Assembly (NCBI RefSeq): GCF_030244015.1
Contig: NZ_JASSYX010000001.1
Coordinates: 1,550,001-1,614,000, forward strand
Length of the DNA: 64,000 nt
Reading direction: 5' to 3'
Source: Pedobacter ginsengisoli
GTDB lineage: Bacteria; Bacteroidota; Bacteroidia; Sphingobacteriales; Sphingobacteriaceae
The notes below the pieces were generated by a model. It was given only the letters and a program-made list of their open reading frames with translations, was not told the origin of the DNA and did no database searches. A program made the position numbers and the translations under genes. Of this stretch, positions 4,419-16,122 are shown one piece after another; the stretch's first letter is position 1, and the number at the start of each line of letters is the position of its first letter.

Positions 4419-5280
4419 TCTGAAAATCTCTAAATCAATAACTAAAAGAAATGAAGATTCATTGAACCGATATTTATATGATATAGGAAAATATAAGCTG
4501 ATTGGGGCTGAGGAAGAGGTTATGCTGGCCAAAAAGATAAAAGCGGGGGATGCTTCTGCTTTAAACATGCTGACTAATGCGAATTTGAGATTTGTAGTTT
4601 CATGCGCCAAAAATTATGTGAATAGAGGGCTTGCATTATCAGATTTAATAAATGAAGGAAATATTGGATTGATAAGAGCTGCGCAGCTGTTTGATGAAAC
4701 CAGGGGATTTAAGTTCATTAGTTATGCGGTGTGGTGGATTAGACAAGCGATTGAAATTGCGATTAAAGAGCAGGTAAGATCGATCAGGGTACCACTGAAT
4801 AAACAACTTGGGATGACTGGGGTGTTGAGGCAAATCGATAAACTGGAGCAAAAGCTTGAAAGGGAGCCTACTTTGTCAGAAATTGCCGAGGCAATGGGTA
4901 AATCAGAAGCCCAGGTGGCGGATTTTATGCAGTCTAACGCCAGAACCTCGTTCCTTGATGACTATATTCCGGCAGGAAATCATGAAAACTCTTCACTAAT
5001 GGATTTTATAGAGGATAGCAGCGAAAAAGCTGTTGACGACTGGATTGAAGTGGAGTCAAGGAATATTGATCTTGTTCACATACTGTCCTTACTTACAAGC
5101 CGGGAAAGAAAGGTTATAGTTAAGATTTTTGGTGTACTTGGCAACAAGACGAGCAACATGACTGAGATCGGTGATGAGTTCAAGCTAACAAAAGAGCGTA
5201 TCAGACAAATAAAAAAAGCTGCTATGGAAAAGCTCAAAAAAACCCCAAAATATGGATACCTTACTGACTATATTCAATGA
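4411..5280 (+). CDS. RpoD-like alternative sigma-70 factor
   Basis: The protein has 289 residues and follows the short Bacteroidota RpoD plan without region 1.1: region 1.2 (SLNRYLYDIGKYKLIGAEEE), region 2 (NLRFVVSCAKNYVNRGL, DLINEGNIGLIRAA, GFKFISYAVWWIRQAI), region 3 and a region 4 helix-turn-helix (MTEIGDEFKLTKERIRQIKKAA). The sequence diverges from the usual housekeeping form in regions 3 and 4 and in the loop around SSLMDFIEDSSE, so I read it as a paralogous group 2 factor. It overlaps the DUF1015 gene by 8 nt. A small membrane protein gene starts within its last 29 nt. Confidence 0.9.
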   Translation: MRNLKISKSITKRNEDSLNRYLYDIGKYKLIGAEEEVMLAKKIKAGDASALNMLTNANLRFVVSCAKNYVNRGLALSDLINEGNIGLIRAAQLFDETRGFKFISYAVWWIRQAIEIAIKEQVRSIRVPLNKQLGMTGVLRQIDKLEQKLEREPTLSEIAEAMGKSEAQVADFMQSNARTSFLDDYIPAGNHENSSLMDFIEDSSEKAVDDWIEVESRNIDLVHILSLLTSRERKVIVKIFGVLGNKTSNMTEIGDEFKLTKERIRQIKKAAMEKLKKTPKYGYLTDYIQ

Positions 5281-5410
5281 GTCTATTCGAGATATCAGGG
5301 ATATTATTTCAATAGTCCTGCTTGTCGGCGTCATTTTAGTGATAGTGGCTAATAAATTCAGGACGTCCCGAAAAAAGACATATAATAATGATGACAAGTT
5401 CTGGCATTGA
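5252..5410 (+). CDS. 52-residue single-pass membrane protein overlapping the sigma-factor gene
   Basis: An ATG at 5252, out of frame inside the 3' end of the sigma gene, opens a 52-residue frame. It has an amphipathic N-terminus (MDTLLTIFNESIRDIRD), one strong membrane helix (IISIVLLVGVILVIVANKF, about 18-36) and a charged tail ending KFWH. It stops one base before a strong terminator, so it is the last gene of the serC operon. I know no matching family. The 29-nt overlap suggests translational coupling to the sigma factor. A membrane-linked modulator role is only a guess. Confidence 0.65.
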   Translation: MDTLLTIFNESIRDIRDIISIVLLVGVILVIVANKFRTSRKKTYNNDDKFWH

Positions 5411-5450
5411 ACAGGACGGTGCATACTTACATGCACTGTCCTGTTTTCTT
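5411..5450 (+). terminator. Intrinsic terminator of the serC-sigma operon
   Basis: A 14-bp stem (5411-5424 with 5431-5444, one G-U pair) with a 6-nt loop is followed by TTTCTT. It lies between convergent genes and ends the plus-strand operon. Confidence 0.88.
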
Positions 5451-5452
5451 CC

Positions 5453-5932
5453 TTAGGACTTTGGTTTCAATTTAAAGCTGGTTTCGTATTTAGATTCTGA
5501 AATTACAAAGAAACTCTCTACAGACCCAATATTGGGAGCGATGGAAAGTCTCTCCAATATAAATGTATTATAAGCCCCCATATCTCTAACAACTATTTTT
5601 AATATATAGTCCCATGTTCCACTCATGTGGTAACATTCCATCACCTCTTCAAACGCGGTAATGTGCTGTTGAAATTCTGTTAGCGCTTTATTGCTGTAAT
5701 CCCTGATCTTGATTACCGTAAATACCGCCATTCCCTTGTTAATCTTGTTCCTGTCGAGGAGCGTTACAAACTTTTTAATTATTCCTGCTTCCTGAAGCCG
5801 CCTGATCCTTACCTGTATTGCGGAAAGTGATTTGCTGGTTTTCCAGGCTATTTCCTTATTGGTGAGCCTTGAGTTTTCCTGAATTAGATTTAAAATGCCC
5901 ACATCTGTGGGATCAAGTCCGTTTACATTCAT
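5453..5932 (-). CDS. Lrp/AsnC-family transcriptional regulator
   Basis: The protein has 159 residues. An N-terminal helix-turn-helix of AsnC type (LDPTDVGILNLIQENSRLTNKEIA, then SLSAIQVRIRRLQEAGIIKK) precedes a RAM/ACT-like ligand domain with CYHMSGTWDYILKIVVRDM near residue 100. The family binds DNA as octamers and responds to amino acids or related small molecules. A perfect 8-bp inverted repeat 40-61 nt before its start is a likely autoregulatory site. It diverges from the AbiV gene. Confidence 0.92.
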   Translation of the reverse strand: MNVNGLDPTDVGILNLIQENSRLTNKEIAWKTSKSLSAIQVRIRRLQEAGIIKKFVTLLDRNKINKGMAVFTVIKIRDYSNKALTEFQQHITAFEEVMECYHMSGTWDYILKIVVRDMGAYNTFILERLSIAPNIGSVESFFVISESKYETSFKLKPKS

Positions 5933-5971
5933 TATGATAATAAGTTAGTTACGTTTAGTTTGCCTTAGTGT

Positions 5972-5993
5972 ACTTAATACATTAATATTAAGT
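5972..5993. promoter_or_regulatory. Inverted repeat ACTTAATA-N6-TATTAAGT
   Basis: A perfect 8-bp inverted repeat with 6-nt spacer lies in the gap between the divergent Lrp and AbiV genes. AT-rich symmetric sites are typical for Lrp-family proteins. It could control the lrp gene, the AbiV gene or both. Confidence 0.5.
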
Positions 5994-6132
5994 GTGTTAT
6001 GGCTGTGCTAATTTATGTAAAATATACTTAGATATATAACAACATGTCAAAAGGCGTTGATTTTTATAGGTACTAATTTAAAAATTAGATATATTAGATT
6101 CGAAGGGTGTTTTTCAGCACTTTAATAGGCCT

Positions 6133-6822
6133 ATGGATCATGAAAGAGGGTTTAAGAGTTTAAATGCTAAAGAGTGCGCTGAGGTATTTCCGTCAGTAAT
6201 TGACAATGCCGAGCGACATTTTTCTGTTGCGCATCACATCTCTACGATCTATGAATATCCCAATGCCGTTGCCCACTTAATACTTGGTGCTGAAGAACTG
6301 GTAAAAGCTACGATGCTGATCCTAAAAAGCAGATCAATTCCAATTAAAGATGCGACAGGGTATGACATGCAATTTTTCGTGCACGGCACCGGACATCATG
6401 TGCTGAAAGATTTCTTTTCTGTATGGTTTGGCGTAAGGGAAATTCTGAATGTGCGAAGATCAAGACATGAATATACTTTAAAGGATATGTTTAATATGGT
6501 TGTATCCGGCTTTGTGGGGATTATAAAAGGTAAAGATCAGTATCACTGGTGGGAAAAAGCTGATACATTGAAGCAAAAATGTTTGTATGTTGATTTTAGG
6601 AATGGTTTGATCCTGCCGGATGTTCAGGTGGCAAAATCAGATTTTAATCAGGCTTATCATCATGTATATGCCTTTAGGTATGAGTTTTATTTGCTTCACC
6701 ATAAAATGATCAATTGTTCCGAAGCCGAACTTATAGAATTTCGTGAGCAGCTGGAAGACAGAGAATTTATTGAACTGCTTGGTGAGACGATCAGGCGGAA
6801 AAAAATTAGCTTCTTGTCTTAA
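6133..6822 (+). CDS. AbiV-family abortive infection protein (HEPN-like)
   Basis: The protein has 229 residues. The N-terminal helical region reads NAERHFSVAHHI followed by NAVAHLILGAEELVKATMLI (about 25-65), the pattern of AbiV proteins. The family is named after the lactococcal phage-resistance protein AbiV, which blocks phage late translation. The helical HEPN-like fold is known from the family; no canonical RxxxxH active site is obvious here. It stands alone between an Lrp regulator and exonuclease III, with no toxin-antitoxin or restriction partner visible, so a single-gene defence role is inference. Confidence 0.72.
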   Translation: MDHERGFKSLNAKECAEVFPSVIDNAERHFSVAHHISTIYEYPNAVAHLILGAEELVKATMLILKSRSIPIKDATGYDMQFFVHGTGHHVLKDFFSVWFGVREILNVRRSRHEYTLKDMFNMVVSGFVGIIKGKDQYHWWEKADTLKQKCLYVDFRNGLILPDVQVAKSDFNQAYHHVYAFRYEFYLLHHKMINCSEAELIEFREQLEDREFIELLGETIRRKKISFLS

Positions 6823-7737: not shown

Positions 7738-8985
7738 TTATAATTTTATAAATTCTACTCGTCTATTACTGGTTTTGCCGGCTTCGCTATTGTCATCGCT
7801 AACCGGTGCAGTAGAGCCTCTGCCTTCAGTTTCCATGCGGCCGGCATCAATTTTATAGATTTTTACCAGTGCATCACGAACCGATTCGGCCCGCTTTATA
7901 GATAGGATCAGGTTTGCGTCAGGTTTTCCGACTGCATCGGTATGGCCAATAATTTTGATCTTCAGGTCAGGATTTTCAGTCATAGCGGTTGCTACTTCCT
8001 TGATCGTACCTTCATTGTCCGATTTTACTTCGGCCGAATTGATGGCAAACAGGATTCCGCTGGTTTCCAGTCTGCCTGTGGTTAGTAATTTGGACCGGTT
8101 GTCGGCACTGCCTTCTGCGAATTTAAAATTCGAAACGTAATAACCCAGCTGCTCGTTGGTATAATTGGAGCTGGACATGTCAATTTTAAGCTGGTTCAAA
8201 TTACCGTTGAGCGGTGCTGCTTGTGGCAGGTCAAATACCTTTTCCTGATCCAGCCAGATTCTGACTCTTTCGTTTTGTATGCTGATGGCAACATGAATGA
8301 CATTGCCTGCTTTTCTGTCAAAATTGGCCACTCTGTATTTGTCTGATTCCAGTTTCTTCGCCACATTTTCAAAGGAAGTAAGCTGTACAGCCGCCTCCGA
8401 ACGATAAGGCGCTATACCGAATCTCAGGCAGTTCTTTAAACGGTAATCGTATGATAAGATCTCGCCTTTATTTCCCCGGTCATAAAAGGCGAAGTTAATT
8501 GCAGGTACCAGATAACCACCTGTCGCCGGCCAGTTCATGATCAGGTCAAATTCAATAGTCGCATTCTCTCCGATATTTACGACCGGGCTGACGAATGTAC
8601 CTGGATATAGGCGCAGCCAATTTCCTTTCACTGTATTTAAAGTAACCACTTCGCCCTTGCTGCGTGTATACCATTTTAATGGAAACTGCCCCAATGCGTC
8701 CTGAGCAAAATTGTCTGCCAGCAGAATTTTTGAGCCGGGAACGAAATCGTAAGTAGTGGTACTTGCTAATGAAGTGGTCGGTGTACCGGATGCATTCTCA
8801 GGTTTTATAGGTTCCCGGGACGTGCTGGTGGCTTCGGTGTTTTTTTTGGCCTTTCCTTCCAGGCCTTTGTCAACCGTTTTGGAGGCCATATCTTCTGCTT
8901 TTTGTTTCAGTTTATTTAAAAAGCCCTGGGCCATTAAATTGTTGCCGGCCAAAAGCAAAGCCGAAATCAGAATTAATTTTTTCAT
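7738..8985 (-). CDS. OmpA-family outer-membrane/peptidoglycan-associated protein
   Basis: The protein has 415 residues from the ATG at 8985, which gives a clean signal peptide (MKKLILISALLLAGNNLMAQ); an upstream TTG would prepend a polar stretch. After a charged Lys-rich segment comes a beta-rich concanavalin-like middle region (about 100-300). The C-terminal OmpA domain (about 310-415) has IIGHTDAVGKPDANLILSIK and the final NRRVEFIKL, which bind peptidoglycan. It lies 77 nt downstream of kinase A, with its own TAACTTTG promoter box and a copy of the TACTACCTAT motif, so it is probably an output of the two-component system. Confidence 0.9.
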   Translation of the reverse strand: MKKLILISALLLAGNNLMAQGFLNKLKQKAEDMASKTVDKGLEGKAKKNTEATSTSREPIKPENASGTPTTSLASTTTYDFVPGSKILLADNFAQDALGQFPLKWYTRSKGEVVTLNTVKGNWLRLYPGTFVSPVVNIGENATIEFDLIMNWPATGGYLVPAINFAFYDRGNKGEILSYDYRLKNCLRFGIAPYRSEAAVQLTSFENVAKKLESDKYRVANFDRKAGNVIHVAISIQNERVRIWLDQEKVFDLPQAAPLNGNLNQLKIDMSSSNYTNEQLGYYVSNFKFAEGSADNRSKLLTTGRLETSGILFAINSAEVKSDNEGTIKEVATAMTENPDLKIKIIGHTDAVGKPDANLILSIKRAESVRDALVKIYKIDAGRMETEGRGSTAPVSDDNSEAGKTSNRRVEFIKL

Positions 8986-8991
8986 ACAATC

Positions 8992-9053
8992 CAAAGTTAG
9001 GGTTGAAAGGCGGTGTGTTGAATAGGGGATACTGTTCAACTACATAGGTAGTA
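8992..9053 (-). promoter_or_regulatory. ompA-like promoter with TACTACCTAT motif
   Basis: On the minus strand, TACTACCTAT (9053-9044) is followed after exactly 44 nt by TAACTTTG (8999-8992), which matches the Bacteroidota -7 element TAnnTTTG. The start codon is only 6 nt further on, so the transcript would be nearly leaderless. No good -33 TTTG is present, which fits an activator-dependent promoter. The same arrangement occurs at 13267-13328. The motif also sits in a short inverted repeat, ACTAC-CTAT-GTAGT. Confidence 0.6.
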
Positions 9054-9062
9054 CTGCTTATT

Positions 9063-10874
9063 TTAGCTGTAAAAAGGGATGTTGATCGTAATTTGGGTGC
9101 TTTCCCCAATGTTTTTTATGGAGATTGTGCCCTTCAACAATTCGAGTCTGTTGTTGATGTCGGGCAACATATTAAATGGTTGTTGGGCAGCCTGAATGTC
9201 AAATTGAAAATCGACACTGGAAGCAAATTTGGTAACGGTATAGCCGATCTCATTAGCAGGGGCACTAAGCAATATACCTGCCGACAACAATTGAAGGATC
9301 CGGAAAATGTGTATAGATTCTGCCGGATTGAAACATTCGTTGATTTCATCGATATTTCCCTGCCGGACATCATAATCTGCAAACGTATCGCTGATGAGTC
9401 CCCTGATGCTTTGGGTTAAGCCCATCAGGTCCATTTGATATGGCCTTAGACGGTGCAGTATCTCACGTACTTCTGCCATGATCGCTGCGATATGGTCGAT
9501 TACAATACTGACCTGTTTCTTTAAAGGTTCTTCAACAAGCTGCTGTAGGCGCCAGGACCTGTTTTTAATCACGATCAGTTGCTGGCCGATGTTGTCGTGT
9601 AATTCCATGGCTACCCTTTTCTTTTCCAGCTCCTGACGTTGGAGCAGCTCTTTGAGAAAAGTTCGTTTTTCTTCAATGGTTTTCAGCTGGATCTGCCCCT
9701 TTTCTTTCCTGTAAAAATTAAGCCTGCTTGCGAGGGCAAAAGAAAGGACGAGTGCTTCCAGCAGTGTGCCCCAATGCATACTGGTCTGGGTAAAGAGGTT
9801 GTCTGGCAGGATATTGAGGTCTTTCAAGTTATACACCGCATTGCCCAGCATGAGGCATCCGAAACCTACAAGGAAGAAAATTGCAGGTTTGTAGCCCTTT
9901 CTAAAGCTTATAATCCCTGCTCCAAACCAATACATGAAGTATGGGTACATTAAATATTGTATGAGCATAAAAGAATATGCCCCTTTCCAAAAGACATCAA
10001 TAATTATAATTCCAATTGAAAGCGCGCTCATCAAACCCCTGAGCTTATTGAAAACAGGACTGTTTTGCCGGGTCTGTAAAAAGGAGTTGGTGAAAAAGAT
10101 ACTCAACAGACTAGCGAAACCAATGATGGTGCCTGCGCTGTTCAACCAGATCAAAGAACTGAGAATGTCCGGCAGAAAGCCATTGTAGAAGAAAAGGTTC
10201 AGACTCCAGAAAAAGATAGCGCCCAGATAGTACAGATAGGGAAGTTCTCTGATCAGCAGGTAAACAAAAAGATTGTAAATTGCAAAAGCCATCAGCATGC
10301 CGAAGACAATCCCGTTTATTAAGTCTGTCAGATAGCCCCGTTCGAAAGCCTTTTGTAAGGTAGTAATTTTAATGGGCAGCCTTAATATATTGTTGCTCCT
10401 TGCGTGTATGTAATATTCAGTTCCGGTGTTGATGGGTATGGATATAGGGATCAACAGGTTGTTGACCCTAACATCACCGGTAGTTTTAGCTTTACTGGCA
10501 TCGCTGCTGAATATTTTGACCAGACTGCCCGCTTTTTTCTGGTAAACTTCTACAGTTTGCAGGACCGGCGGGCTGTCGATCTGTATATGCCAGCCGGTAG
10601 TTTTACTACGATTGATGATGCTGGTTTTTATCCAAACTGAGGCGGTGGTTGCACCTAAGGATAACGTAGGGTATGCTGAGGCTTCAAATTTAGCAGTGCT
10701 CAACTGCTGAAGTTTTATCTCTCCCTTTGTATCAGCCAGGAACGCTGGATAATGAAGGGTATAGCTTTTTTCTCTGTTTTTCAATATAATTTGCCGGGCA
10801 TAGGAGAAGTGTATGCTGCTGGATAACAATAATATGAGTGTACTGAAAAGTACTTTATACGCCCCTCTGGTCAT
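9063..10874 (-). CDS. Kinase A: 7TM-DISM sensor histidine kinase, His box intact, ATP-binding domain degenerate
   Basis: The protein has 603 residues from the ATG at 10874, 4 nt after the regulator's stop (the frame runs back to a TTG at 10898). Order: signal peptide (1-27), 7TMR-DISM extracellular domain (about 30-150), seven membrane helices (about 180-385), HisKA_3 dimerisation domain with KKRVAMELHDNIGQQL (His426) and LRPYQ. The C-terminal HATPase region (about 520-603) aligns in register with kinase B, but the motifs are lost: the N-box reads LQLLSAGILLSAP, the DNGKG box reads DIQAAQ (Asp559), and the GLGL box reads FNMLPDI. It should be a phosphate acceptor that cannot bind ATP normally. 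Confidence 0.9.
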   Translation of the reverse strand: MTRGAYKVLFSTLILLLSSSIHFSYARQIILKNREKSYTLHYPAFLADTKGEIKLQQLSTAKFEASAYPTLSLGATTASVWIKTSIINRSKTTGWHIQIDSPPVLQTVEVYQKKAGSLVKIFSSDASKAKTTGDVRVNNLLIPISIPINTGTEYYIHARSNNILRLPIKITTLQKAFERGYLTDLINGIVFGMLMAFAIYNLFVYLLIRELPYLYYLGAIFFWSLNLFFYNGFLPDILSSLIWLNSAGTIIGFASLLSIFFTNSFLQTRQNSPVFNKLRGLMSALSIGIIIIDVFWKGAYSFMLIQYLMYPYFMYWFGAGIISFRKGYKPAIFFLVGFGCLMLGNAVYNLKDLNILPDNLFTQTSMHWGTLLEALVLSFALASRLNFYRKEKGQIQLKTIEEKRTFLKELLQRQELEKKRVAMELHDNIGQQLIVIKNRSWRLQQLVEEPLKKQVSIVIDHIAAIMAEVREILHRLRPYQMDLMGLTQSIRGLISDTFADYDVRQGNIDEINECFNPAESIHIFRILQLLSAGILLSAPANEIGYTVTKFASSVDFQFDIQAAQQPFNMLPDINNRLELLKGTISIKNIGESTQITINIPFYS

Positions 10875-10878
10875 TTGG

Positions 10879-11520
10879 TTACCGGTGTTCAATGGCAAAC
10901 CGCAGCAGGCTGTTTTTCCCGTTAAGGTTTAGCTTTTTCAGGATGTTCATCCGGTGATTGGATACGGTCTTCTCACTAATGAACAGTTCGTCTGCGATGG
11001 TTTTTGTGCTTTTATAGCTGCCGACCATCTTCAAAATTTTCATTTCGGAAGGAGTGAGGGTACCGAGCAGTTTCTCGGACGTTAGATTGTTGCCTGTTCT
11101 GCGCTGGCTCAGCAAGAAAGTACTCATTTCTGGACTGATGTATGAGTTTCCGCTTACAACAGCTTCTATCGCCTGAATGATATCGACCACTGCATTTTCT
11201 TTCAATACATAACCGGCAACTCCTACATCCAGGGCATGCAGGAAGGTATCTTTTGCTTTATGCATGGTCAGCAGTATTACGTTGGCATCGGGCTTAATTT
11301 TGATCAGCTCTTCGGCGGCAACCAATCCGTTCATTTCCGGCATGTCTATGTCCAGTATAGTCACCATAGGAAGCCGGGTTCGGGCAATTGCAAGTGCTTC
11401 CAATCCGTTTTTGGCTTCAAAAATAACCTCGTAACCAGGTTCTGATTCTATGACTTCCTTTAGCCCCTTTAAAAATATGGGATGATCGTCTGCGATGAGT
11501 ATAGTTGTTTTTGCTTTCAT
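10879..11520 (-). CDS. NarL/LuxR-type response regulator
   Basis: The protein has 213 residues. The receiver domain has Asp11-Asp12, phosphoacceptor Asp57 (ILDIDMPEMNG), Thr85 and Lys107, so it is fully equipped. The C-terminal GerE/LuxR helix-turn-helix reads LTPSEMKILKMVG, then TIADELFISEKTVSNHRMNI. It is sandwiched between the two complementary kinases: its ATG overlaps kinase B's stop by 4 nt (11517-11520) and its stop lies 4 nt before kinase A. The likely phosphate donor is kinase A's His426. Confidence 0.95.
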   Translation of the reverse strand: MKAKTTILIADDHPIFLKGLKEVIESEPGYEVIFEAKNGLEALAIARTRLPMVTILDIDMPEMNGLVAAEELIKIKPDANVILLTMHKAKDTFLHALDVGVAGYVLKENAVVDIIQAIEAVVSGNSYISPEMSTFLLSQRRTGNNLTSEKLLGTLTPSEMKILKMVGSYKSTKTIADELFISEKTVSNHRMNILKKLNLNGKNSLLRFAIEHR

Positions 11521-13232
11521 ATGATAATACTATTGATATGGATAGGTATTTTAATGTACACCCTGGTTCCGCCTTTGGGGATGCTGCTCATAGTCAGTTC
11601 TGCATTCAATAATTTAGACCGTTCGCGGATACCTGACAATCCAAGGCCTGATCTGATATTAACGGCATCATAGCCTTTTCCGTTGTCATGGTAAGATATG
11701 CTGAGGTTCTTTTTTGCTAATTTTATGCTCAAACTGCAAGTACTGGCTGCGGAATGCTTGATCAAATTACTGAGCAGTTCCTGGATGATCCGATAACTGT
11801 TCATCTCCGCTTCTTTGTTCAGCAACTGATCGATTTCATCAATATTCAGGTCAACATTGATTTCCGGGTCAGTGGTTACATCCTCAACCAGACGCTCCAC
11901 CGAGCGTCTCAATCCAAGTACCTCTATTTGATATGGTCTGAGAGAGAAGGATACATTACTTACTTCCTCAATGGTTGTTCCGATATCTTTCGTAATGCTG
12001 TTAAATAAGTCTGGATGTGCTCCCTTACTTTGCCGCTCCAACATAAATAGTTCATTTTTGAGTTGTACCAGCTGCTGGCCAACACGCATGTTGAGTTCGT
12101 TGGATATGCTTTCTTTTTCATTTTCCTGACTGATGATCAGCGCCTTTGAAAAATCTGCTGTCTGTTCGAGCATTGCCACTTGCAATCTCACGGTTTCTTT
12201 TTTTAGGTCATTCAGTTTCACCGCCAGTGCAAATGAAAGTACGATCGCTTGCAGACAAAGCCCCATTTGAAGACTCATACCCGAATGGAAGCCTTCATAG
12301 AAACCGTAGCTTGTCAGCAAGCAGCCCACTGCAGCCAGGTAATAAGCGGCAGGACGAAAATCTTTTTTTAATCCATGGAGCCCCGCAAACAGCCAATAAG
12401 CGGCAGCAATTACCCATGTCATCTGGAGCAGCTTAAACGCGAGTACAGAATAGCCTGCCAGATCGACTCCAATGGGAATCACAAATACTATAACAAGCCA
12501 TTTGCTGATCCGCAAGAGAACCGGGGAGTTGATTTCAATCCGGAGATATCCATTGCTGAACCATAAACTAAACAGCAGCGCTGCAGAAGAGGAACCTGTT
12601 AACAGCCTCAGGCTCCAGGCTGGTAACCACTGGGTGAAATAGCCATTCCAGATCAGTAAAAAAATGAGATTGGAAAGGACGTAACCTAAGTACCAAAGGT
12701 GCGACCTGTCCTTTATAACAATATATATGTAAAGGTTATAGATCATCAGTGCCAGTAAGGCGCCGAACATAAATCCGTTTACGATATTTTTAAAATGCTC
12801 TTCTTCATAAATCGCTTCCAGGGTACCGGCGTAAACAGGAATTTTAAGCTTATAGTGATTTTTGACACGAAGGTAGTATTGCCTGGTTTCGCCTTTACCC
12901 AGCTTTAATGGCAAGATAAACCCGTTTACCTTAACCGGTCTGTTTTGGTAGTATAGTTTATCATTGAGTATGATGTGGTTAAACTTGCCGTCTTTGTGCG
13001 CTGTGTACAAATCTACTTCACTCACGGGCGGAGGTACCTGGATGTACCAGTCATTTGAACTCGAATTGTTTGTCAGGGTGATGTTTATCCACAATGCGTT
13101 TTTGCTGAGCTGCACATTTCTAATCAGATAAAACGCCTCTGGATAGGTCAGTACGATCTCTTTTGCCCCAACGGTTAAGGTTGTGATTAGTAAGAAACAG
13201 GTGAGGAGGACGCTTCTCAAAAACATGTTCAA
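11517..13232 (-). CDS. Kinase B: 7TM-DISM sensor kinase, ATP-binding domain intact, phosphoacceptor His replaced by Asn
   Basis: The protein has 571 residues. Order: signal peptide (1-23), extracellular 7TMR-DISM domain (about 25-140), seven membrane helices (about 155-345), a HisKA_3 region, and a HATPase domain (about 455-565). The ATPase motifs are complete: IIQELLSNLIKHS, HDNGKGYD (Asp516), RSGLGLSGIRERS and GGTRVYIKIP. The H-box, however, reads ISNELNMRVGQQL, with Asn381 (codon 12090-12092) at the position of the phosphorylated His and Met in place of the following Asp. LRPYQ is retained. Alone it could bind ATP but not autophosphorylate. First gene of the kinase-regulator-kinase operon. 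Confidence 0.93.
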   Translation of the reverse strand: MNMFLRSVLLTCFLLITTLTVGAKEIVLTYPEAFYLIRNVQLSKNALWINITLTNNSSSNDWYIQVPPPVSEVDLYTAHKDGKFNHIILNDKLYYQNRPVKVNGFILPLKLGKGETRQYYLRVKNHYKLKIPVYAGTLEAIYEEEHFKNIVNGFMFGALLALMIYNLYIYIVIKDRSHLWYLGYVLSNLIFLLIWNGYFTQWLPAWSLRLLTGSSSAALLFSLWFSNGYLRIEINSPVLLRISKWLVIVFVIPIGVDLAGYSVLAFKLLQMTWVIAAAYWLFAGLHGLKKDFRPAAYYLAAVGCLLTSYGFYEGFHSGMSLQMGLCLQAIVLSFALAVKLNDLKKETVRLQVAMLEQTADFSKALIISQENEKESISNELNMRVGQQLVQLKNELFMLERQSKGAHPDLFNSITKDIGTTIEEVSNVSFSLRPYQIEVLGLRRSVERLVEDVTTDPEINVDLNIDEIDQLLNKEAEMNSYRIIQELLSNLIKHSAASTCSLSIKLAKKNLSISYHDNGKGYDAVNIRSGLGLSGIRERSKLLNAELTMSSIPKGGTRVYIKIPIHINSIII

Positions 13233-13266
13233 ATATAATTAACCTGCAGGGATTGAGAATGGGTAA

Positions 13267-13328
13267 TACTACCTATAAATATGATGGATGTCGCTTATTT
13301 ATCTACTGCGGCATCTGGGGTAATTTTG
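13267..13328 (+). promoter_or_regulatory. Promoter of the ZU5 lipoprotein gene with TACTACCTAT motif
   Basis: TACTACCTAT (13267-13276) is followed after exactly 44 nt by TAATTTTG (13321-13328), a perfect TAnnTTTG. A weak -33 element TTTA (13298-13301) has the canonical 19-nt spacing. Motif and spacing duplicate those before the OmpA-type gene. The motif also lies 35 nt upstream of the divergent kinase B start, so it may autoregulate the cassette. Confidence 0.62.
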
Positions 13329-13376: not shown

Positions 13377-14642
13377 ATGGAAAAATTAAATGTATACCTG
13401 CTCAGTATCGTATGTGCAGTTGGTCTTCTCGGCTGTAAAAAGGATAAAGTAAAACCTGTGGCTGAGGAAAATGCCGCGGTGGTTGGTCTGGTGCGGCCCA
13501 AAGGTGTCTCAACGGGGACGGCAGTGACAAGGCGCATCGGACCAGATGGCGGAGTGTTTGCTTCTTTGGAATGTGGCGTGACCCTGAATATTCCGGCAGG
13601 TGCGTTGAAAGAGGACGTGACCATTGGGATTGAGCCCATTACCAGGACCAATATCGCAGGCGTTGGGCAGTCGTTCAGACTTACTCCGCATGACCTGCAA
13701 TTTGAAAAGCCTGTGTCTGTGACTTATACGTATGATATAGAAGCCGATTCGGTGGCCATGCTCGAAACTTTCGGGTTTGCATACCAAATGGCCAATGGAG
13801 TATGGAAGTTTGTTGGCGCCAGCAGCTATGACATTCAATGGGGAACAGTGACCTTTAAAACAACACATTTTAGTGACTGGTCTGTGATGAACCGGGTGTC
13901 GTTGTCGCCACTTCATGCTAGCCTGGAACCTGGTGAAAAGCAGGTGGTGAAAGCACTGATTTATACAGAATCAAAATATGAGGACCTCCTGGTGCCCCTA
14001 ACAGGTGACGCGGGAACTGAACCGGGATATCCCGTAGGGACGCCGGTGCCGTTGCCTGCAAAGTTTATTAAATCCTGGGATTTAACCGGGCCGGGAAATA
14101 TCATTAACTCAAACGGAAATTTGATTACTTACCAGGCGCCTGCCTTAGTGAACGGCTATACCATTGCGACAGTGAACTTAAGCCTTAACGCGCCCGTGAC
14201 AGGTGCGTTTCTTTTGTTGTCCAATATCGAGATTACAGGTGATGGCTGGGCTGAACTGAGTATAGGCGGAGGGGCGATGACGAAGTTTCCGATAACCCCT
14301 GCGGTAAAGTCCGGACAACGGTATTTGCTTTCGAACCCGGAAGCCGAAGGTGGCGGGCAGTTTCTGCTGACCTGGAATGGTGGGTTAGGGACTTACGCTT
14401 ATGATCTGACTGCAACAGGCAACAAGTTTCACTTTCTGATTGGCAATGGCGGATATACCAGTGCTTATGTAGATCCTCAGCAAGCAGGATTGGTGGCAAG
14501 CGGTGGCAGTATCAACATCACTAAAATGGATGAAAAATGGGTGGAGGGCAATTTCACAGTGCCTAATGCCGGCATTGGGCCAATGCTCTTACAGACCACC
14601 AATATCAACGGCCGGTTCAGGGCACGGGTCTACATTCCCTAA
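13377..14642 (+). CDS. ZU5-like domain lipoprotein
   Basis: The protein has 421 residues. A lipoprotein signal peptide ends at LLGCKK (Cys near 20). A ZU5-like beta domain follows, with IGPDGGVFASLECGVTLNIP and AGALKEDVTIGIEP (about 55-90) and a region up to THFSDWSVM. The remaining ~270 residues are beta-rich without a family I can name. It is an exported envelope protein, divergent from kinase B, with the TACTACCTAT promoter, so probably under control of the neighbouring two-component system. Ligand or partner unknown. Confidence 0.85.
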   Translation: MEKLNVYLLSIVCAVGLLGCKKDKVKPVAEENAAVVGLVRPKGVSTGTAVTRRIGPDGGVFASLECGVTLNIPAGALKEDVTIGIEPITRTNIAGVGQSFRLTPHDLQFEKPVSVTYTYDIEADSVAMLETFGFAYQMANGVWKFVGASSYDIQWGTVTFKTTHFSDWSVMNRVSLSPLHASLEPGEKQVVKALIYTESKYEDLLVPLTGDAGTEPGYPVGTPVPLPAKFIKSWDLTGPGNIINSNGNLITYQAPALVNGYTIATVNLSLNAPVTGAFLLLSNIEITGDGWAELSIGGGAMTKFPITPAVKSGQRYLLSNPEAEGGGQFLLTWNGGLGTYAYDLTATGNKFHFLIGNGGYTSAYVDPQQAGLVASGGSINITKMDEKWVEGNFTVPNAGIGPMLLQTTNINGRFRARVYIP

Positions 14643-14697
14643 TGGCCAGAATTTTATGTATTCAAGTTTAATTTTTAACAAACAAATCACAATCGAA

Positions 14698-16122
14698 ATG
14701 ATAACCATTTTAATGACCAGACTTCATCATCAGCTGTTAAAGTTTGTGCAGGTGCTGCTTTTATTGATTATTGTGTCTGGTTGCAGCCGAAATAGAGATA
14801 TTTCCAGACCAGCGGCGGTAACGCAAATTCATTTTAAGGAAAATATGATAACACTGGACGTCGGGAGTTCTGCCCGGCTGATGGTACTCCATTCACCCTC
14901 TGAATTGACAGCTCCAGGCTATGAGTGGGCGGTAGCAAACTCGGGAGTGGCAAGAGTGGAGAACGGGGTAGTGTATGGTTATCAGGTGGGGGAAACTGAG
15001 GTGTCTGTGGTTGCGAAAGAATTGGGGCTTACTGCAAAGATCAAGATTAGGGTACTTCCAATCTTGCCACAATCACTTCGGCTTCAGGCAGAAAAAACAT
15101 CTCTTTTGGTCGGAGAGGAAACACCAGTTACCTATACGGTTCACCCACAAGATGTAACCGACATAGATAAACTTGAAATCGAATGGTCAAGTTCGGATGA
15201 GACAGTCTGTACGATCTCAGATAATAAAATTCTGGCCCTTGGCGCCGGATCTGCCGATGTCGTTGCGTCAATTAAAGGGACTGATATAACGGGGAAATTG
15301 ACTATACAGGTGGCTCTGGTACCGATAGAGTCGGTTTCACTAAATCTTTTGCAAACGACGGTGTCTGTTGGCATCGGAGTACGCCTGATACCTCAGATAT
15401 TGCCAGCTCATGCGACAGATAAGCGGTTAGTCTGGACTTCGGAAAATCCAGAGGTCGCCAGTGTAGTTGACGGAACTGTACTTGGTCGAAAAGAAGGAAT
15501 GACAACAATCCGGGTTACTTCTGCGGATGGTCAAAAAACAGCAACCTGCCAAGTCACCGTGAAACCGATACAGGTCCAGAGAATCATATTGTCCACAACT
15601 ACATTGTCCTTAACCGTGGATCAGGAATATCTGGCAAACGCAACTGTGTTACCAGAGGATGCGAAGGATAAATCATTAAGATGGAATTCTTCAAACACCA
15701 GCATTATTACCGTTGATCAGCAGGGTAAGATTGTGGCAAAAGGAAAAGGAGAGGCGATCATTTGGGCCATTTCCAACAGCAATCCCAATATACAGGCAGG
15801 TTGCCAGGTTCTTGTCACCAAGCCCGAGGAAATGATCTTTACCCAAGTGACAGCCGGTTCTAAGGTGACGGTAGATGGATACATGTCTGCAACTGTGTCG
15901 GGTTTGTTTATGAACGGGTATTATGTTCCTGTTAAGCTGATTTCCTTTGAGGTCTTATCCCATGCGGGTGAGGTCATTATTGGTAATTACAAGGGTCCCA
16001 TTATTTCACCAAGTATACAATATACCCATACCGTAACAATAAAGAATGTATACAAGCCGTTTGTACGATACGTGTTTGAGTTTAGTGGTCGACGCTATGA
16101 AAGACTTGTTGAAATCTCATGA
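14698..16122 (+). CDS. Lipoprotein with tandem Big2 (bacterial Ig-like) domains
   Basis: The protein has 474 residues from the ATG at 14698 (another at 14713); the frame extends further upstream but would overlap the previous gene and bury the signal peptide. The signal ends at IVSGCSR. Repeated Ig-like units follow, each with a W(S/T)S-type centre and a final G-x-A/T-x-(I/V) strand (for example WSSSDETVCTIS, WTSENPEVASV, WNSSNTSIITVD). About four units span residues 40-385, before an unassigned C-terminal beta domain. It is likely surface-exposed and adhesive. The gap to the preceding lipoprotein gene is 55 nt, so they may be cotranscribed. Confidence 0.85.
   Translation: MITILMTRLHHQLLKFVQVLLLLIIVSGCSRNRDISRPAAVTQIHFKENMITLDVGSSARLMVLHSPSELTAPGYEWAVANSGVARVENGVVYGYQVGETEVSVVAKELGLTAKIKIRVLPILPQSLRLQAEKTSLLVGEETPVTYTVHPQDVTDIDKLEIEWSSSDETVCTISDNKILALGAGSADVVASIKGTDITGKLTIQVALVPIESVSLNLLQTTVSVGIGVRLIPQILPAHATDKRLVWTSENPEVASVVDGTVLGRKEGMTTIRVTSADGQKTATCQVTVKPIQVQRIILSTTTLSLTVDQEYLANATVLPEDAKDKSLRWNSSNTSIITVDQQGKIVAKGKGEAIIWAISNSNPNIQAGCQVLVTKPEEMIFTQVTAGSKVTVDGYMSATVSGLFMNGYYVPVKLISFEVLSHAGEVIIGNYKGPIISPSIQYTHTVTIKNVYKPFVRYVFEFSGRRYERLVEIS

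Follow-up and report, generated by a model that had tools for sequence, protein, structure and literature searches.

Can two membrane sensor histidine kinases, each of which has lost the opposite half of its catalytic machinery, act together as one enzyme? The question is raised by a cassette in a 64,000-nucleotide (nt) stretch of the Pedobacter ginsengisoli genome (assembly GCF_030244015.1, contig NZ_JASSYX010000001.1, positions 1,550,001 to 1,614,000 of the forward strand; hereafter the window), where kinase B, a LuxR-type response regulator and kinase A follow one another, in this order, on the minus strand. Kinase A has a perfect H-box but its ATP motifs are gone, whereas kinase B has intact ATP motifs but carries Asn in place of the phosphorylatable His. 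We consider it probable (roughly 0.7) that the two form a heterodimer, within which B would bind ATP and phosphorylate His426 of A, and A would pass the phosphate on to the regulator whose gene lies between theirs, at Asp57. The core of this proposal, a trans-phosphorylating pair, is well supported at the level of sequence. The three genes are as follows.

Positions 11517 to 13226, minus strand: kinase B, 569 amino acids (aa) from its ATG, with a TTG at 13232 as a possible alternative start; 7TMR-DISM sensor, degenerate dimerization and histidine phosphotransfer (DHp) region, intact ATP-binding domain.
Positions 10879 to 11520, minus strand: response regulator, 213 aa; receiver and LuxR-type helix-turn-helix (HTH), with Asp57 as the predicted phosphoacceptor.
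Positions 9063 to 10874, minus strand: kinase A, 603 aa; 7TMR-DISM sensor, intact HisKA_3 DHp, pseudo-catalytic domain.

An earlier note on this DNA had proposed such a pair, and its open reading frames (ORFs), strands, motifs and residue numbers were confirmed in the sequence. It had also placed the three genes in one overlapping operon; this holds for B and the regulator, which share 4 nt (11517 to 11520), but not for the regulator and A, which are separated by a 4-nt gap if A starts at its ATG. The regulator is complete, as that note had stated: its receiver has Asp57, Asp11/12, Thr85 and Lys107, the residues expected in such a domain, and its HTH is of the LuxR type (Pfam). The diagnostic positions of the two kinases are these.

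Positions 9597 to 9599, minus strand: codon of the acceptor His of A, His426 in the 603-aa form, within HDNIGQ.
Positions 12090 to 12092, minus strand: codon of the Asn at the phosphorylatable-His site of B (residue 381 if translation starts at the TTG at 13232, residue 379 if at the ATG at 13226).
Positions 11868 to 12221, minus strand: linker and DHp region of B; relative to the single-kinase motif RKRIASELHD, Lys and Arg (residues two and three) and the His-Asp are lost, and the Gln of GQ is retained.
Positions 11754 to 11780, minus strand: N-box of B, ELLSNLIKH, intact.
Positions 11673 to 11687, minus strand: G1 box of B, DNGKG, intact.
Positions 11628 to 11651, minus strand: G2 box of B, SGLGLSGI, intact.

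The same division appears at the level of domains. Kinase A matches HisKA_3 in Pfam at an E value of 4e-10 and kinase B matches HATPase_c at 2.7e-12; the converse matches, HATPase_c in A and HisKA_3 in B, are absent at E up to 1; 7TMR-DISM_7TM and 7TMR-DISMED2 are common to both. The DHp His within HDxxxQ that marks a complete HisKA_3 kinase is present in A and missing from B, and in neither protein do the N, G1 and G2 boxes of HATPase_c accompany that His. Because A lacks the ATP boxes and B lacks the His, neither protein alone is a complete kinase; the acceptor and the ATP motifs are found on two different, co-occurring proteins, as in a split kinase. No CheA domain was matched by Pfam in A or B, which places the pair outside the CheA3/CheA4 family.

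Both losses are conserved among relatives. Homologue searches, in which the roughly 8,000 candidates with the most shared words were scored, returned 40 relatives of A (55–74% identity; P0004–P0043) and 34 of B (47–70%; P0107–P0140), and the two sets were aligned with 38 intact single kinases (37 from the search with A, plus P0044). The counts cover 40 A proteins (the window's included; P0033, which has no catalytic region, the short entries P0046 and P0084, and the more distant P0045 excluded) and 34 B proteins (the window's included, its second entry P0106 being counted once; P0134, of 362 aa and without a DHp, excluded). His, Asp and Gln of HDxxxQ are each present in all 40 A proteins, and the Lys-Arg pair at −7/−6 from the His likewise (40/40). 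Their ATP site is gone: the N-box Asn remains in 2/40, the N-box Lys and His and the three G1 columns of DxGxG in 0/40, and the first two G2 glycines in 1/40 and 5/40. In the B set, by contrast, the N-box Asn, Lys and His, DxGxG and the first two G2 glycines are all kept in 34/34, and not one protein has the His (Asn in 30, Ser in 3, Glu in 1); the Asp that should follow it survives in 3/34, the Gln in 34/34, and Lys and Arg at −7/−6 in 1/34 each. The His, Asp and Gln of HDxxxQ and the N-box, G1 and G2 residues named here each occur in all 38 intact single kinases. When the search was widened by means of the B alignment, five more B entries turned up, of which four are short, and each has Asn where the His should be. 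Of the listed relatives in which this region is covered, none of A above 50% identity has the ATP motifs and none of B above 45% has the His. A His kept in B or ATP motifs kept in A, the pattern that the earlier note had named as speaking against a pair, was thus not found among the relatives counted, and the losses are conserved rather than sporadic. Sporadic decay and sequencing error are ruled out by their fixation in 40 A and 34 B proteins.

The two genes also travel together, as the earlier note had expected. Within the family, A was found in 6 of 399 genomes (E up to 1e-55) and B in the same six (E up to 1e-50), with three candidates scored per genome; a survey of 145 genomes of the genus, searched with B, found it in six, A adjoining each time. 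The order B–regulator–A is kept in 8 of 8 cassettes, six from the window's genus (two of them, from G701 and G702, nearly identical) and two from genus g39, one of which is Sphingobacterium sp. CZ-UAM. Among the B database entries, 14 of the 33 with a listed contig match one of 40 A entries in the exact size of the longest contig, which we took to mean that the two lie on the same contig; the remaining 19 B and 26 A entries are uninformative either way, because one contig is listed per cluster. Altogether 20 pairs are available, and both losses are present in 20/20. Conserved losses joined to co-occurrence in the order B–regulator–A are what a trans-phosphorylating pair predicts.

They also bear on two other explanations. 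If both kinases were decaying, their complementarity would be coincidence; the reduced sensor of B in 13/34 entries, and its apparent split into two ORFs on two contigs, would suit such a process, but the losses are fixed in two clades (support 100/100), the other motifs are kept throughout, and the six genomes (of 399) found to hold A are those found to hold B, so that we find this explanation barely credible. Alternatively, another complete HisKA_3 kinase of the cell might phosphorylate A, with a separate role for B. Four further matches to A lie in the genome outside the locus, and could supply such a kinase; the adjacency and co-occurrence of A with a His-less, ATP-competent relative would then go unexplained, which makes the idea very unlikely.

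The pseudo-catalytic domain of A is kept whole and looks constrained. Its reading frame stays open, its amino-acid identity exceeded the largest of 500 neutral simulations in four of five comparisons, and its ratio of the proportions of non-synonymous to synonymous differences (pN/pS) is 0.43, against 0.40 for the live domain of B. A model of it superposes on the catalytic domain of DesK, and it is predicted to retain the DesK fold. Its role would be that of a structural partner within the dimer. This bears on a further alternative, namely that A and B remain homodimers and that B homodimers phosphorylate A homodimers on encounter. Sequence evidence does not distinguish such an exchange from a heterodimer, and CheA4 does phosphorylate a separate protein, CheA3 (PMC6829392). 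However, a free substrate protein has no obvious need of a whole, seemingly constrained pseudo-catalytic domain, and shared residues are kept in both DHp regions; we judge the homodimer arrangement unlikely.

The DHp motifs suggest a further division of labour. The His of DesK pairs with the adjacent Asp as a catalytic dyad, and in NarX, a HisKA_3 kinase, the Asp and Gln of DxxxQ are required for phosphatase activity (PMC5231405, PMC6798134, PMC3510030). Since A has His, Asp and Gln, while B has the Gln but the Asp in only 3/34, A would be both acceptor and phosphatase and B a kinase only; the phosphatase assignment follows from A alone keeping the full HDxxxQ (Asp and Gln of DxxxQ in 40/40). 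The same motif would also suit a different role for B, that of an ATP-binding, DivL-like allosteric regulator of an A that acts mainly as a phosphatase, the regulator being phosphorylated by another kinase or a small phosphodonor. Catalytically inactive regulatory kinases such as DivL do exist (PMC12189002), and dead ChrS raises HrrS signalling and forms heterodimers with HrrS (PMC9491836). Yet DivL and dead ChrS target true kinases (CckA and HrrS), whereas the operon partner of B has no ATP motifs, so that the DivL arrangement of an inactive kinase acting on a complete one is absent here; nor does an allosteric role by itself predict nucleotide motifs in 34/34 B proteins or an acceptor His-Asp in 40/40 A proteins. 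We consider it rather unlikely.

The earlier note had further supposed that two inputs must coincide. The sensors do not support this. In the B set the extracellular domain is reduced to under a fifth in six of the 34 entries (P0133, P0135, P0137–P0140) and to about half in one (P0136); six others (P0121–P0126) lack residues 200–273 of the membrane domain, roughly two membrane helices, a stretch also missing from P0140. The B sensor is thus reduced in 13/34, and the DHp and catalytic domain are full in 34/34. Faulty gene calling may account for some of the short B entries, but for G325, G701 and G702 the contigs themselves show the deletion. The whole sensor is kept in 40 of 41 A proteins, the exception, P0043 (387 aa), beginning inside it. 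We therefore reject a two-input AND gate as a general rule. Because the A sensor is kept almost without exception, A would be the main sensor of the heterodimer, and the reduction of the B sensor in several lineages suggests that B is turning into an ATP-delivering subunit. B variants without about 73 residues of the 7TM domain, their catalytic parts intact, can be seen at positions 4901 to 6412 of locus L050 and in P0121–P0126. Two pairs of B half-proteins (P0210/P0211 and P0212/P0215) each comprise a sensor ORF and a DHp–catalytic ORF, apparently on one contig per pair, as judged from equally long contigs; either a frameshift lies behind this, or sensor and kinase have truly become separate.

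How did the two losses arise? A maximum-likelihood tree built from 54 proteins, 15 of them A and 18 of them B, recovers each of the two as a single clade (100/100), and the clades are not sisters; the tree is not truly rooted, its outgroup rows have long branches, and one member (P0140) is of odd composition. The A clade joins P0045 and then P0044 (100/98), and the B clade joins P0209 (98/95); P0044 and P0209 are intact kinases that carry the two catalytic Pfam domains and the checked motifs. A and B therefore seem to derive from two different intact kinases, and the tree is most simply explained by two losses on two separate branches, after divergence from complete kinases. That a single kinase was duplicated in tandem in this lineage is disfavoured, given that the two clades are not sisters. 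P0045, from Chitinophaga silvatica, outside the Pedobacter–Sphingobacterium group, is an A-like protein whose HDxxxQ is intact and whose ATP site is degenerate. A partner for it gave no match in 295 genomes of the class (the window's own A excepted), 13 of family f2 and 24 of family f23, two families that could not be shown to include Chitinophaga. A single scan of genome contigs yielded two loci.

The output of the pair can be approached through the DNA in front of B, where an 18-bp imperfect palindrome occurs in 8/8 loci, at a distance of 32 nt from the ATG, or 33 nt in one locus; 7 or 8 of the 9 positions in its arms pair. The elements and candidate target genes in the window are listed below.

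Positions 13259 to 13276: palindrome, first copy, 32 nt before the ATG of B, in the region shared with the divergent gene at 13377 to 14642; predicted regulator-binding site.
Positions 13230 to 13237, minus strand: TATATTTG, matching the Bacteroidetes −7 element consensus TAnnTTTG and found 3–4 nt before the ATG in 8/8 loci; putative −7 promoter element.
Positions 9044 to 9061: palindrome, second copy, with 4 mismatches, between A and the OmpA-family gene.
Positions 7738 to 8985, minus strand: OmpA-family envelope protein; predicted target gene.
Positions 13377 to 14642, plus strand: ZU5-like protein (Pfam score 17.8, under the cut-off of 21), divergent from B; predicted target gene.

Across the eight loci (about 119 kb), a scan allowing up to 4 mismatches found 13 palindrome sites, against 1 for a reversed control pattern, and none of the 13 falls in an ORF longer than 200 aa, while each is at most 400 nt from where an ORF starts. 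Eight of them provide no independent test, because the pattern was built from those sites upstream of B. The five new sites lie in the gap between A and the OmpA-family gene (9044 to 9061), after A in L050 and in L051, upstream of a 284-aa gene (L024) and upstream of a ZU5-like gene (L054). Each of the six loci from the window's genus has, divergent from B, a gene that resembles the ZU5-like one in N-terminus and length; this gene and B have the site in common. The conserved palindrome before B and the second copies near neighbouring genes suggest autoregulation; going by these sites, the operon itself and a few envelope genes nearby are likely under the control of the regulator, which would activate them, once phosphorylated, by binding the palindrome.

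Several observations weigh against the proposed heterodimer or its output. The fifth neutral comparison of A's dead catalytic domain (G336) fell within the simulated range, and the pN/pS values are approximate because pS is near saturation. P0045 has an A-like dead ATP site, with a B partner neither found nor excluded, and the half-protein pairs P0210/P0211 and P0212/P0215 could reflect decay of B; a B split into sensor ORF and kinase ORF on two contigs may represent decay or a further separation. Phosphorylation from B to A requires a trans geometry, and ArcB and EvgS act in cis, their mutants showing no complementation (PMC4734776), as does MtrB (PMC5956149); for DesK and other HisKA_3 kinases, cis versus trans is not settled in the literature searched. 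Finally, the palindrome is not enriched genome-wide in seven genomes (19 forward matches, 16 for the reversed control). Of the sites with at most 2 mismatches in these genomes, eight lie by the cassette and one elsewhere (G381). Given no excess over the control across whole genomes, our claim is a local one and a wider regulon is not claimed. We give about even odds to the fuller picture, in which the heterodimer would be an obligate natural membrane kinase made of homologous full-length sensors that have lost opposite catalytic halves, A serving as sensor, acceptor and phosphatase, B turning into a subunit that delivers ATP and sheds its sensor, and the regulator driving its own operon through the palindrome; this would be a split bifunctional kinase with positive feedback, a type of circuit predicted to show bistability.

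The surroundings of the cassette vary. ZU5-like and Big_2-repeat proteins adjoin it in the window (13377 to 16122), and similar sequences occur at 2065 to 5485 of L024 (Pedobacter sp. B4-66); the Big_2 repeats are a Pfam match for the window copy and were called by sequence similarity in L024. A hemerythrin-like gene lies downstream of A in L024 (9921 to 10628; Pfam match), L050 (8995 to 9675) and L051 (9520 to 10200), the last two called by their similar start, and is absent from the window. Elsewhere in the same genome, outside the window, a 7TMR-DISM kinase-like frame (G000:C1:777936-779990) has one in-frame TAG within the match.

CheA proteins have the architecture Hpt P1 to P5, and in DivL the phosphorylatable His is replaced. 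No report of the A/B pair was found in the open-licence literature searched, in which the named split histidine kinases are CheA proteins. Several systems resemble it in part. DesK and NarX share the DHp and catalytic (CA) fold and the HDxxxQ logic with A and B, but are complete kinases that form homodimers (PMC5231405, PMC6798134, PMC3510030). DivL of Caulobacter is likewise a catalytically inactive kinase-like protein, but works on the kinase CckA, and the two are not reciprocally crippled (PMC12189002). In RetS–GacS and ChrS–HrrS two sensor kinases pair, as proposed here, again without reciprocal lesions (PMC12189002, PMC9491836). Hik36–Hik43 of Synechocystis has been called a split histidine kinase and serves one regulator, but arose from one cheA homologue split into two genes (PMC7656254). 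A 2013 survey listed 711 of 42,417 HisKA proteins as possible split bifunctional kinases, the candidates being HisKA proteins without HATPase; its Discussion names no reciprocal pair of full-length sensors (PMC3591291). The same paper argues that a split bifunctional kinase with phosphatase activity on the free acceptor can be ultrasensitive or bistable (PMC3591291), a prediction that would become testable with A and B if the pair works as proposed, the predicted palindrome sites being ready reporter promoters.

Two systems come closest. An ATP-site mutant and a His mutant of EnvZ regain autophosphorylation when mixed, through heterodimers (PMC4734776). The A/B pair has the same reciprocal lesions and needs geometry of this kind, unlike that of the cis-acting ArcB, EvgS and MtrB; it differs in that the EnvZ lesions are laboratory mutants of one protein, whereas those of A and B are natural and fixed. 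If the proposal is correct, the pair would be a natural counterpart of the EnvZ experiment, kept across two genera (Pedobacter and Sphingobacterium), in which cis/trans geometry could be tested in a HisKA_3-type kinase without mutations and the kinase, acceptor and phosphatase roles would be cleanly separable on two membrane receptors. The closest natural case is CheA3/CheA4 of Rhodobacter sphaeroides, where ATP-binding and phosphoacceptor functions likewise reside on two proteins and the phosphatase on the acceptor protein (PMC6829392, PMC3591291). Those proteins, however, are of the CheA type, with the domains divided between them, and belong to a cytoplasmic chemotaxis cluster, whereas A and B are membrane HisKA_3-type sensors that have retained the full set of domains, with a single dead domain per protein.

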